A program made the position numbers and the translations under genes. Below the pieces are notes generated by a model that ran no database searches, was not told the DNA's origin, and was given only the letters and a program-made list of their open reading frames with translations. Shown one piece after another: positions 37,705 to 39,972 of a stretch of DNA of 64,000 nt; the stretch's first letter is position 1; the number at the start of each line of letters is the position of its first letter. Origin of the DNA: an uncultured Pelagibacteraceae bacterium (GTDB lineage: Bacteria > Pseudomonadota > Alphaproteobacteria > Pelagibacterales > Pelagibacteraceae); the NCBI GenBank assembly GCA_902591755.1, contig CACJBX010000002.1, forward strand, positions 1-64,000. The letters are read 5' to 3'.

Positions 37705-37742
37705 GGGCCGTTAGCTCAGTTGGTAGAGCAATTCCCTTTTAA
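37705..37742 (+). pseudogene. tRNA-Lys(UUU) 5' half, cut after the anticodon loop
   Basis: Bases 1-38 of a tRNA-Lys: acceptor GGGCCGT, D arm, anticodon stem and loop CTTTTAA. The normal 3' anticodon stem GGAAT is missing and the sequence continues CATAGTGCAC. The matching 3' half, with the complementary acceptor ACGGCTC, is at 39928-39972. This is the original host tRNA locus, split by the 2.2-kb insert. Confidence 0.9.
37736..37742 (+). other. Left attachment core (attL)
   Basis: CTTTTAA, tRNA positions 32-38. Host tRNA sequence lies to the left, element sequence (CATAGTGCAC) to the right. Confidence 0.75.
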
Positions 37743-37760
37743 CATAGTGCACTCATTAAA

Positions 37761-37776
37761 CTTTAAATATTTAAAG
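37761..37776. repeat. Perfect 16-bp palindrome near the left end of the element
   Basis: CTTTAAATATTTAAAG, 19 bp inside the left core. All A/T except the ends; it could bind a protein or be chance in AT-rich DNA. Confidence 0.45.
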
Positions 37777-37799
37777 CAAAAAAAAGCTGATTCTATTTT

Positions 37800-37818
37800 G
37801 GTGTGCACAGAGTGTGCA
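37800..37818 (+). repeat. 19-bp direct repeat, left copy (arm-type site)
   Basis: GGTGTGCACAGAGTGTGCA, identical to 39795-39813. Within it GTGTGCA is repeated at an 11-bp interval, one helical turn, like paired arm-type sites of lambda-family integrases. Confidence 0.75.
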
Positions 37819-37962
37819 TAGTATCTTGCATACCTTTCCTTGCGCAAAATTACACAGTTAAAATAATTGTGCGTGTTTGTTTGATAAAAGTGCACATATA
37901 GATTTATTTTATATTGAAAAATTAAGATTTATTTATTATATAAACTGCTTCATTGCATTTAT

Positions 37963-37968
37963 TATAGT
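37963..37968 (+). promoter_or_regulatory. Possible -10 for the element's tRNA-Lys
   Basis: TATAGT, 15 bp before the intact tRNA. The -35 region is poor (TAAACT at 37941-37946). Confidence 0.3.
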
Positions 37969-37983
37969 TATGCAAAAATATGT

Positions 37984-38059
37984 GGGCCCTTAGCTCAGTT
38001 GGTAGAGCAATTCCCTTTTAAGGAATGGGTCGTTGGTTCGAGTCCAACAGGGCTCACCA
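37984..38059 (+). tRNA. tRNA-Lys(UUU), complete, carried by the element
   Basis: 76 nt with encoded CCA. Acceptor GGGCCCT pairs with AGGGCTC; anticodon stem ATTCC/GGAAT around loop CTTTTAA (anticodon TTT); T arm GTTGG-TTCGAGT-CCAAC. Compared with the split host gene it differs only at positions 6 and 67, and the change is compensated (G6-C67 becomes C6-G67), so it is a genuine functional variant. It presumably replaces the interrupted gene. Confidence 0.95.
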
Positions 38060-38172
38060 TTAACCAATAAAACCAACCTTAATATTCGGTGTGCAAAAAC
38101 AATTTTTAAAAAATGTTGATTTTTATTGTGCACATTGTTTACACACATGATTTAATTTAATATTTTTTGATT

Positions 38173-39441
38173 ATGAAAAAATTAATAAATTACATTATCG
38201 TTTTTCTTCTATTAACTATTAATACTTTTGCGTCTGAAAAAATTGAAACAGGTAAAACGTTTTTAAAATCTATAACCAATAAAAGCCTTACAAAAAAAGA
38301 AACCATTTCTTTTTTGAATAAATTTGCAGTCATAATAGAGGATGAAAGAGGAGATGGTGAGGTAACTTACGTTTTTGACAACGAAAATTATTTTAGATAC
38401 AAAGGGATAGAAGTTATCTCAACAGATGCTTGGAGATTTAGTAATTTGGGTGCACTAAGACTATTTAACAAGGATATTAAAATGACTTGGAAAATAAAAA
38501 TTTCTGATAAAGAAAATCTAATTAATATTAAAACAAAATTTGATCCAGTTGGTAAATTATATAATTTTTCTGTAATGGACAAGAGTGACTTTTTAAATCA
38601 AATAGAAGAAGCTAAATTAGCTGAAAAAAAGAAACAGGAAGCGGCTAAACAAGCTGAGATAGAAAAAAAGAAGAAACAAGAACAAGAAAAACTCGAGGCC
38701 GAACAAAAGCTTGCTGAAGAAAAGAAAAAATTAGAGGAAGAAAGATTAGCTACTGAACAAAAACTTGAAGAAGAAAAGAGAAAATTAGAAGAAGAACGTC
38801 TAGCTGCTGAACAAAAGCTTGAGGAAGAAAAGAAAAAATTGGAGGAAGAAAAATTAGCACTTCAGAAAGAGCTGGAAGAACTAAAAAAAAAGAAGGCTAA
38901 AGAATTAGAACAAAGTGAAAAAACACCAGCACAAATAAAAAAAGAGGAAAGAGAAAGAAAAAAACAAGAAAAATTAGCTGCTAAGAAAAAAGCTAAAGAA
39001 GAGAAAGAGAAACTAAAACAAGAAAAATTAGCTGCTCAGAAAAAAGTTGAAGAAAAAAAATATTTATGGCAAGGAAAAGAAGTATCAAAGGACGAATATG
39101 ATAGATTGTTAAATGATTTAAAAAGGAGAGCTGAGGAAAATGAAAGTAAATATAAAGAAAAAATAGCTAAAAAAAAAAATAAAGAACAAAATAAATTAAA
39201 AAAAATAACTAATGCAGCTTATGAGTCTAAGATGTGTATAATGAGCTTACGGCACCCTGATCTTGCTCAATATAAAGCTAGTCTTCTTACAGCACATAAC
39301 TTTGTTGCTCAAAAGGTACTTTTAGCAGTAAATAGTGGAGCTGCTGCATATACTATCGATAGTTATATTGATGATTTTAGAGATCTGCACTATAGAGCAA
39401 TGACTACAGCAACCAGTAACTGCGAACGTTTTCCTTACTAA
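38173..39441 (+). CDS. Secreted protein with a long charged helix, element cargo
   Basis: 422 residues; family not recognised. The ATG at 38173 gives a signal peptide ending near TFASEK (a TTG two codons earlier is also possible). Residues ~21-140 form a folded domain of alternating hydrophobic strands. Residues ~145-345 are almost only Lys, Glu, Ala, Leu and Gln, with 18-residue repeats (LEEERLATEQKLEEEKRK and close copies), predicting a long single helix or coiled coil. The C-terminal ~70 residues are a small domain with two cysteines (SKMCIMSLRHPDL ... TSNCERF). It is the main cargo gene of the tRNA-Lys element, in a two-gene operon. Confidence 0.8.
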   Translation: MKKLINYIIVFLLLTINTFASEKIETGKTFLKSITNKSLTKKETISFLNKFAVIIEDERGDGEVTYVFDNENYFRYKGIEVISTDAWRFSNLGALRLFNKDIKMTWKIKISDKENLINIKTKFDPVGKLYNFSVMDKSDFLNQIEEAKLAEKKKQEAAKQAEIEKKKKQEQEKLEAEQKLAEEKKKLEEERLATEQKLEEEKRKLEEERLAAEQKLEEEKKKLEEEKLALQKELEELKKKKAKELEQSEKTPAQIKKEERERKKQEKLAAKKKAKEEKEKLKQEKLAAQKKVEEKKYLWQGKEVSKDEYDRLLNDLKRRAEENESKYKEKIAKKKNKEQNKLKKITNAAYESKMCIMSLRHPDLAQYKASLLTAHNFVAQKVLLAVNSGAAAYTIDSYIDDFRDLHYRAMTTATSNCERFPY

Positions 39442-39442
39442 C

Positions 39443-39697
39443 ATGCACTACAATATTATTAAATTAATTAAATTTTTATTTATTGTATTTTACTTAACCT
39501 TTATACCTAACCAATCATATGCTAAATGTTATTGGTTGGGATACGGTGACAATTACAAATGTTACGATAATACAGGAAAGTTGTATTATATGTTTGGTAA
39601 AAAAAACGGTAATGGCTATTATAAAAAAAATTATAAATCAGGTGAAAAAGCTGATTGTAAATGGGTTTATGGAAAATTAAAGTGCAGTAATTTTTAA
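39443..39697 (+). CDS. Small secreted Cys-containing protein, element cargo
   Basis: 84 residues; family not recognised. The signal peptide (FLFIVFYLTFIPNQSYA|KCYW) leaves a mature peptide of about 57 residues rich in Tyr, Lys and Gly with four cysteines, suggesting a disulfide-held extracytoplasmic domain. The Gly/Tyr-rich strand pattern (GYGDNYKCYDNTGKLYYMFG) recalls short beta-repeat proteins. It starts 1 bp after the preceding gene's stop, so the two are co-translated. Confidence 0.7.
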   Translation: MHYNIIKLIKFLFIVFYLTFIPNQSYAKCYWLGYGDNYKCYDNTGKLYYMFGKKNGNGYYKKNYKSGEKADCKWVYGKLKCSNF

Positions 39698-39744
39698 AAT
39701 ATAATATAAAAATAAACTATTCAGCAGTTAACTATATTAAAAAA

Positions 39745-39754
39745 AGTACGTACT
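39745..39754. repeat. Perfect 10-bp palindrome in the element's right-hand gap
   Basis: AGTACGTACT between the last cargo gene and the right arm sites. The 275-bp stretch 39698-39972 otherwise holds only arm-type sites and the tRNA 3' half. Confidence 0.4.
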
Positions 39755-39794
39755 GTAGATTTCAACACACTGTTAAATTTGAGTAAATTTCATA

Positions 39795-39813
39795 GGTGTG
39801 CACAGAGTGTGCA
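39795..39813 (+). repeat. 19-bp direct repeat, right copy (arm-type site)
   Basis: GGTGTGCACAGAGTGTGCA, same orientation as 37800-37818. A further GTGTGTAAAC follows at about 39820, matching in inverse the TGTTTACACAC at about 38137. Confidence 0.75.
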
Positions 39814-39862
39814 AAAAAGTGTGTAAACTTTTAAAAAAAGCACATAAAACTGGCCAGATTTT

Positions 39863-39880
39863 TGTGCAAATTTTTGCACA
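39863..39880. repeat. Inverted pair of TGTGCAAA arm sites
   Basis: TGTGCAAA-TT-TTTGCACA, perfect 8-bp arms, 48 bp from the right core. Related single sites occur at 38090-38095 (TGTGCA) and 38127-38134 (TGTGCACA) beside the intact tRNA. Confidence 0.65.
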
Positions 39881-39927
39881 CCGTAAAAAAAATTCCATAA
39901 ACAGGGAACTTCACTTCGGTTATAGTG

Positions 39928-39934
39928 CTTTTAA
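39928..39934 (+). other. Right attachment core (attR)
   Basis: CTTTTAA, preceded by element sequence (TTATAGTG) and followed by the host tRNA 3' half. Confidence 0.75.
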
Positions 39935-39972
39935 GGAATGGGTCGTTGGTTCGAGTCCAACACGGCTCACCA
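39928..39972 (+). pseudogene. tRNA-Lys(UUU) 3' half
   Basis: Anticodon loop onwards: CTTTTAA, GGAAT, variable loop, T arm, ACGGCTC acceptor and CCA. Its acceptor strand pairs with the GGGCCGT of the 5' half at 37705, not with the intact tRNA's GGGCCCT, which shows that the two halves were once one gene. It has no promoter of its own. The convergent protease gene ends at the next base. Confidence 0.9.

Follow-up and report, generated by a model that had tools for sequence, protein, structure and literature searches.

The resident tRNA-Lys(UUU) gene of an uncultured Pelagibacteraceae bacterium, a member of the SAR11 group that is among the most abundant bacteria of the ocean, is cut within its anticodon loop by a 2.2-kb insert that carries a complete tRNA-Lys gene of its own. 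The stretch analyzed here, called the window below, covers positions 1 to 64,000 of the forward strand of contig CACJBX010000002.1 (assembly GCA_902591755.1), and the insert occupies positions 37736-39934, between tgt and a gene for an M48-family protease. With a probability of about 0.72, we read this insert as an integrative cargo island that is non-autonomous, has attachment ends of phage type and is mobilized in trans by a phage integrase. The observation of a split and replaced tRNA-Lys is confirmed as real, and it is well supported as a tRNA-replacing integrative island. Comparison with relatives and with temperate phages of the same site shows that the insert falls exactly at the anticodon-loop core, that the host gene is lost at both junctions and replaced by a complete gene within the insert, that the phages have the same order of parts, and that the left end has spread horizontally. 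In what follows, G000 is the genome of the window, other G numbers are genomes, and L numbers are fetched loci or viral stretches.

The split tRNA-Lys gene and its replacement

The features of the locus, in window coordinates, are as follows.

36543-37655, + strand: tgt (queuine tRNA-ribosyltransferase), the left host flank, an open reading frame (ORF) matching PF01702 (E 4.3e-139); also left of tRNA-Lys in relatives
37705-37742, + strand: 5' half of the resident tRNA-Lys (allele G6), up to and including the anticodon loop; ARAGORN and Rfam do not score it
37736-37742, + strand: left core CTTTTAA, 7 bp (left attachment site, attL), from the sequence
37743-37983, + strand: left (L) arm of 241 bp that contains arm-type repeats; G345, G239, AG-911-P04 and the G135 prophage have homologous L arms, and the internal tRNA probably has its promoter here too, judged by eye
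37801-37818, + strand: arm-type repeat GTGTGCACAGAGTGTGCA, copy 1
37984-38059, + strand: complete tRNA-Lys(UUU), allele C6-G67 (ARAGORN, Rfam)
38015-38021, + strand: internal copy of the core, an intact anticodon loop and in principle a fresh bacterial attachment site (attB), from the sequence
38060-38165, + strand: P' arm, homologous to the arm that directly follows the rebuilt tRNA of the classical G198 island
38173-39441, + strand: cargo ORF, 422 aa from ATG (mechanical ORF start TTG 38167), with relatives in AG-911-P04 and the type II island of G175
39443-39697, + strand: cargo ORF for a small protein of 84 aa with a signal-peptide-like start, by eye
39698-39927, + strand: right (R) arm, also containing arm-type repeats; over the last 135 bp it is 81-89% identical to the R arms of G345, G239 and G198
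39796-39813, + strand: arm-type repeat GTGTGCACAGAGTGTGCA, copy 2
39893-39914, + strand: R-arm block TTCCATAAACAGGGAACTTCAC, identical in G239 and G198, with 3 mismatches in G345
39928-39934, + strand: right core CTTTTAA (right attachment site, attR), from the sequence
39928-39972, + strand: 3' half of the resident tRNA-Lys (allele C67), from the sequence and relatives
39973-40797, - strand: M48-family protease gene, the right host flank, an ORF matching PF01435 (E 2.8e-35); also the right neighbor in relatives

The first-pass annotation of this DNA had placed the two outer halves and the complete gene at exactly these coordinates, and the layout holds at every base: the outer halves have the loop CTTTTAA in common, and their acceptor strands (GGGCCGT and ACGGCTC) pair with each other. 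The full tRNA-Lys sits about 240 bp inside the left end of the island, and it is the only tRNA-Lys scored at the locus (72 bits; ARAGORN and Rfam). Neither the left nor the right junction rebuilds a tRNA, and the call of a functional tRNA is limited to the internal copy; the earlier claim that rescue comes from a whole internal gene is borne out, and related phages and islands are arranged likewise. The single compensated difference between the internal and outer alleles was also correctly described, lying at pair 6:67 (C-G inside, G-C outside). Because the internal gene is identical across 76 nt to the resident tRNA-Lys of three relatives (L002, L017 and L025), it is a normal allele of the genus, foreign to the halves of G000 itself. 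Pfam confirmed both flanks, as TGT and Peptidase_M48.

The outer halves could still be of use to the cell if they were joined at the RNA level, as an intron-containing or a trans-spliced split tRNA. The anticodon loop is the usual place of tRNA introns, and the flanks of the two halves pair at -27.3 against a mean of -20.0, with 23 of 500 mononucleotide shuffles as good. Some pairing is nevertheless expected from arm sites that occur in both orientations, the bases adjoining the halves are direct rather than inverted repeats (TATAGTG and CATAGTG), no Rfam intron family matched within E 1, and a complete tRNA is present anyway, all of which make such joining very improbable.

The internal gene is also the only tRNA-Lys detected in the G000 assembly, in which all 25 Rfam tRNAs could be typed; the check for another tRNA-Lys(UUU) that the first-pass annotation had called for thus came back negative, in an assembly that is 84.66% complete. 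A relative that is 100% complete (G012) has one tRNA-Lys among 32 tRNAs, all of them typed.

Neither cargo ORF, of 422 or 84 aa, has a family match in Pfam, NCBIfam or PADLOC. By eye, the larger protein is a coiled coil with a signal-peptide-like start; a fold prediction from 3 sequences gave a mean predicted local distance difference test score (pLDDT) of 73.6, and the best PDB match had E 0.036, with none at 0.001. In the R arm, the block TTCCATAAACAGGGAACTTCAC bears a likeness to a degenerate anticodon stem-loop (ATTCC-7 nt-GGGAA).

Empty sites and independent recurrence

A first search of 61 genomes found matches to the 5' half in 31, all from the same genus, and 30 loci were fetched. Among the 29 loci other than that of the window, 24 have an intact tRNA-Lys with the M48 gene starting within about 40 bp, and these are empty sites; the split arrangement is therefore not fixed in the relatives, which was one way in which the integrative interpretation could have failed. 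The remaining five comprise one classical island (G026), one locus cut by a contig end, and three short inserts that hold no tRNA half. The latter are cargo inserts of about 0.8-0.9 kb in the gap between tRNA-Lys and M48 (L031 in G008, L032 in G015 and L033 in G034), and this spot is a cargo hotspot even where attachment repeats are not visible.

Across 399 genomes of the genus, 307 of which had a match, the 5' half occurs twice in only four (G000, G135, G239 and G345). The 3' half occurs twice in 11 of the 399, namely G000, G345, G239 and eight genomes with a single 5' half. Both G345 and G239 have the order tgt, 5' half, L arm of 241-242 bp, whole tRNA-Lys, P' arm, cargo, R arm, 3' half and M48, with cargo unlike that of the window. 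Scanning the genome collection with the L arm added one more carrier, AG-911-P04, whose sequence stops within the cargo so that its right end is cut. The two 5' halves are spaced 279-280 bp apart in G345 and G239 and 288 bp apart in AG-911-P04, and the L arm measures 241, 241, 242 and 250 bp across the four species. At position 6, the internal tRNA differs from the outer half in G000 and AG-911-P04 and matches it in G345 and G239.

These recurrences bear directly on whether the halves might result from assembly error or from a chimera formed during single-cell amplification. The isolate names of G345, G239 and AG-911-P04 read as those of single-cell genomes (one title says metagenome-assembled genome), and amplification can create chimeras. 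Against this, the layout recurs independently at the same base and with similar spacing, and both lysogens and free phages have sites of the same design (see below), leaving an artifact with almost no probability and making assembly error a very unlikely source of the halves.

Temperate phages of the same site

A prophage in G135 occupies the same tRNA-Lys gene, in the order tgt, 5' half, 286-bp L arm and whole variant tRNA-Lys, followed by about 26.7 kb to the end of the contig. Of six proteins tested, five matched PHROGs: a major head protein, a head-tail adaptor, a tail protein and a virion structural protein, plus a terminase at the contig end. Two of these are 80-82% identical to proteins of the viral contigs L061 and L060. 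The location that corresponds to the integrase of L061, beyond the terminase, falls past the contig end.

The viral contigs L060, L061 and L064 each encode a tyrosine integrase, which matched the PHROG integrase in all three and PF00589 above the cut-off in two and below it in L064; the other tested proteins of L060 and L061 comprise four with structural or packaging PHROGs and two without any. Profile A1, built from four integrases and with L061 and L064 among its rows, found 11 viral integrase loci. Sorted by identity to L061 and not by a tree, these fall into clade A (L123-L130, 53-100%) and clade B (L131-L133, 34-35%); L123, L127 and L133 lie on the same contigs as L061, L060 and L064, respectively.

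The free phage attachment site (attP) could be judged at five of these loci on five contigs (L123, L125, L126, L127 and L133), and all five have the order integrase, R arm, CTTTTAA, L arm and complete tRNA-Lys, with the tRNA starting 288, 288, 288, 298 and 408 bp after the core. Four further loci (L124, L128, L129 and L131) stop before any tRNA could appear and are excluded from this count. L132 is the right junction of a lysogen, with R arm, CTTTTAA, tRNA-Lys 3' half and M48 (75 aa at 74.7%); L130 resembles such a junction but is too short, its flank having no M48 match, and only L132 is counted. L125 and L126 have an integrase 94% identical to that of L123, yet next to the unchanged attP core they carry a clearly different tRNA-Lys gene, as though the spare were exchanged to suit other hosts while the core stayed.

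A classical attP, carrying the 3' half of tRNA-Lys, was not found among the seven stretches that matched the 3'-half pattern in viral contigs (L060-L064, L144 and L145), of which L145 comes from the same contig as L132 and L144 is on a contig that breaks within the tRNA. L062 and L063, tRNA-Lys genes in phage contigs of 65-74 kb, have no attP-like core in the stretch examined and were treated as ordinary phage tRNAs. Three matches to the pattern CTTTTAANATAGTGNACAC in viral contigs (L057-L059) were rejected as chance, lying inside a protease-like gene of other phages. The L061 integrase had no match among isolated phages, and a comparison of the tRNA-Lys itself with phages was uninformative (999 records, best places 60-90% identical).

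Mosaic history and classical islands

The left end of the island has a history of its own. In G000 and G345, the host genes on either side are 72.3% (tgt, 677/937) and 77.7% (M48, 606/780) identical, with only 37 of 91 fourfold sites of tgt the same, compared to 93.4% for the L arm (225/241), 77.3% for the P' arm (85/110) and 85.1% for the R arm (114/134). Since the L arm so exceeds the flanking genes (72-78%), it has moved horizontally between at least some species. The comparison of G000 with AG-911-P04 gave 85.1% for the L arm (205/241, 9 gap positions), 62.1% for the P' arm (64/103) and 72.9% for tgt (663/909); that with G239 gave 71.4% for the L arm and 75.1% for tgt, with no excess in the L arm. 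The drop in identity to the right of the internal tRNA argues that the history changes at this gene, and that the island is a mosaic of a phage-type left end and a classical cargo island.

Classical islands are found at the same tRNA-Lys. Seven have the usual layout, with the tRNA rebuilt on the left and both ends on one contig (G198, G325, G175, G304, G085, G179 and G026); G160, whose two 3' halves are on separate contigs, was omitted from the arm comparison. Six of the seven have an arm clearly like that of the clade B phages (type II), and the P' arm of the window is 81% identical to that of the remaining one, G198. Cargo is exchanged across arm types: the 422-aa protein of the window and a cargo protein of the G175 island (type II) are 75% identical over 322 aligned residues, and between the type I island of G198 and the type II island of G085 the Sel1 proteins are 95% identical. 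Other cargo includes, in the classical island of G026 (L034, 7199-8963), an EcoRI-type endonuclease (Pfam E 2e-102) with an N6/N4 methylase and, in the classical type II island of G325 (L134, 2862-4373), a gene for a PIF1-like helicase.

The first-pass annotation had mentioned that two stacked insertions could also explain the layout. In that case a classical island (38015-39934) would have rebuilt the tRNA, and a short module (37736-38021: L arm, promoter and tRNA 5' half) would later have entered the rebuilt loop, or would be what remains of a deleted phage; each module would be bounded by cores and separately movable or exchangeable. The change of identity at the internal tRNA favors this scenario, both in the G000/G345 pair (L versus P' arm, Fisher P 4.6e-5) and in the comparison with AG-911-P04, as does the match of the P' arm to that of G198. 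There are also likely stacking scars, recognized by eye: the island of G239 (L048, minus strand) contains, upstream of its R arm, a degenerate third tRNA-Lys 3' half that is probably the scar of an earlier stacked insertion, and the middle of the G198 island (L056, minus strand) has a fused stretch like R and P' arms, without core or tRNA, between two cargo blocks. On the other side, the L arm is nearly constant in length in four species, the four genomes with two 5' halves are three islands and a prophage with no solo left module among them, and the internal tRNA alleles agree on both sides of pair 6:67 and of the variable T-stem pair, which fits a tRNA that was carried whole. What stands of the suggestion is that the left and cargo modules differ in history; stacking as such we consider possible, at somewhat less than even odds.

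The source of the integrase and the pairing of arms with phages

No integrase was found in the island, either among its ORFs or by Pfam and NCBIfam family searches. The only Phage_integrase protein detected in the G000 assembly is a 323-aa Xer-like tyrosine recombinase just to the right of the window (G000:C2:64823-65362), whose best NCBIfam match is XerD at 69.9 bits, against a cut-off of 329.6. Integrases of the A1 type were found in none of the five island or prophage genomes, including G000, with a profile that recovers three of three virus records (two are its own rows; L132 is not). Because the island holds no integrase that we could find, it should not move unaided. The earlier description of an integrative element that destroys and replaces a tRNA accordingly holds for the layout and the replacement gene, and needs correction as to movement by the element alone.

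One explanation for the missing integrase is that the insert has decayed and lost its mobility, so that the left end of what was once a prophage persists next to unrelated cargo only because its tRNA is now essential. The lack of an integrase and of any family match for either ORF would fit, and essentiality alone could keep the internal tRNA in place. However, conservation of the arms and cores extends across several species whose cargo differs, and the L arm moved recently between divergent species, so that we regard such a remnant as unlikely.

Mobilization by a phage, our preferred reading, draws on the arms. The motif TGTGC, picked after inspection, occurs 5 times in the L arm of the window (0.19 expected), 3 times in 150 bp on the P' side (0.12 expected) and 6 times in the 230 bp of the R arm (0.18 expected), 14 in all against about 0.5 expected. 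TGTGC and TGTAC, the latter likewise chosen after inspection, were counted on both strands, and one GTGTACAC site counts twice; the window background is 0.78 and 0.58 per kb, respectively. In their 230-bp R arms, the type I islands (G000, G345, G239 and G198) have 3-10 TGTGC and no TGTAC, while the counts in the six type II islands are 2-6 for TGTAC and 0-3 for TGTGC, G179 being mixed.

Measured against 200 dinucleotide shuffles, the type II R arms resemble those of clade B (z 7.5-12.1 with L132 and 2.3-16.3 with L133) and not those of clade A (z -2.1 to 3.4 with L123, L125, L127 and L130). The L arms of G000, G345 and G239 gave z values of 1.1 to 6.9 in 15 comparisons with G135, L123, L125, L127 and L129, and of -1.0 to 0.0 with the clade B locus L133. 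The pairing of island arms with phage clades is thus well marked for type II, whereas for type I there is no more than a suggestion of it.

Several observations weigh against mobilization by a phage. The type I R arms gave modest z values with clade A (2.5-4.3 with L123 and L125, -0.3 to 1.9 with L127 and 0.2-5.2 with L130), and with clade B they reached 1.3-3.5 for L132 (2.4-3.5 in three of the four), the values for L133 being -0.8 to 0.0. The R-arm and L-arm patterns of the islands had no exact match in viral contigs, and neither an excised circle nor a packaged island was seen. An A1-type integrase was found in none of 250 genomes of the genus at E 1e-30, in a search without a positive control; lysogens with such an integrase are therefore either uncommon or hidden by assembly gaps. 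At 85% completeness, the host assembly may also lack a second tRNA-Lys or an integrase that the cell possesses. Finally, the mosaic identities of the arms (L 93%, P' 77% and R 85%) mean that the whole need not move as one unit.

A model for integration, and its relation to known systems

The proposed model for mobilization in trans begins with a tyrosine integrase supplied by a related phage. The core of the circularized island (R arm-CTTTTAA-L arm) would recombine with the anticodon loop of the host, killing the host tRNA-Lys, and the internal gene would supply tRNA-Lys instead; if this function is essential, survival would be limited to cells that keep the internal gene. The island may have originated when a classical cargo island (3' half, P' arm, cargo and R arm) gained a phage L arm and tRNA, presumably by recombination at the internal anticodon-loop core. 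It had been proposed that such an element is hard to lose, and this would apply to loss of the internal copy alone: as follows from the sequence, clean core-to-core excision would rejoin the halves and restore the host gene.

The first-pass annotation contrasted the locus with the usual tRNA-targeting elements, and the contrast is sound in that no junction is rebuilt; the principle, however, has already been described as tRNA-dependent lysogeny. That account (Guerrero-Bustamante & Hatfull 2024, PMC10865867) defines it by three features: attP and attB share a short core, the tRNA is not rebuilt, and lysogeny requires a cognate tRNA from the phage. It lists cores of 8-17 bp (Table 2) and tRNA-Lys-TTT as a frequent target, states that the reach beyond actinobacteriophages needs study, and names Lj965. 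The actinobacteriophages treated there (among them Fionnbharth, LeBron and Gaia) are like the present case in their tyrosine integrase, in an attP that shares only a short core with the tRNA gene, in integration that rebuilds no tRNA, and in a phage tRNA of the same isotype, the target often being tRNA-Lys-TTT; they differ from it in that here the hosts are SAR11, the phages are others, the core is 7 bp and, above all, small integrase-less islands have the same layout. PMC12429752 reports Sinorhizobium prophages without the feature of tRNA-dependent lysogeny, and excerpts of PMC12416821, PMC10872708 and PMC11389934 contain nothing on this layout. Among open-licence papers searched by title and abstract, none describes SAR11 phages or islands with this layout, which does not prove its absence from print. 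The tRNA-dependent principle in phages is thus already known, and what is new is an island that has no integrase, the occurrence in SAR11 and the mosaic formed with classical islands.

The island also resembles phage satellites and hitchers, such as phage-inducible chromosomal islands (PICI), phage-inducible chromosomal minimalist islands (PICMI) and tycheposons, as these appear in parts of PMC10803314, PMC10872708 and PMC11389934, in being a small cargo island that seemingly depends on phage functions, and the restriction-modification pair of the related G026 island adds to the likeness. According to PMC10803314, known satellites excise by means of integrases that they encode, whereas none was found in the island of the window. 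Compared with a tRNA-dependent phage, the island has the same attachment logic but no integrase of its own, which the related phages do encode. It shares with classical tRNA islands the same tRNA-Lys, the same core and a similar size, and with that of G198 the same R and P' arms, but its left junction is not rebuilt, the place being taken by an L arm of phage type and an entire tRNA gene. Cis-mobilizable elements (CIMEs), which derive from conjugative elements, are likewise flanked by the attachment sites of an autonomous element and lack a recombinase; here, by contrast, the related attachment sites are those of temperate phages, and a tRNA gene is carried.

Tentatively, and with rather less confidence than an even bet, the findings can be drawn together as a two-tier SAR11 system at one tRNA gene, in which tRNA-replacing temperate phages coexist with integrase-less cargo islands of two arm types, matched to and riding on two clades of phage integrase. 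Some islands would have taken over the replacement-tRNA end of a phage, making the host dependent on a foreign tRNA, and the order core, tRNA end, core, cargo, core would let the tRNA end and the cargo be swapped separately.

The tRNA-replacing layout has now been seen beyond actinobacteriophages, both in phages of SAR11 and in cargo islands that lack an integrase. At this one site, classical islands occur alongside tRNA-replacing ones and one type of R arm is common to both, which provides natural intermediates between the two modes of integration. By splitting and replacing the only detected tRNA-Lys of a streamlined host, the island would offer a clear natural example of a cell that depends on a mobile element, the two seemingly tied together by an essential gene.

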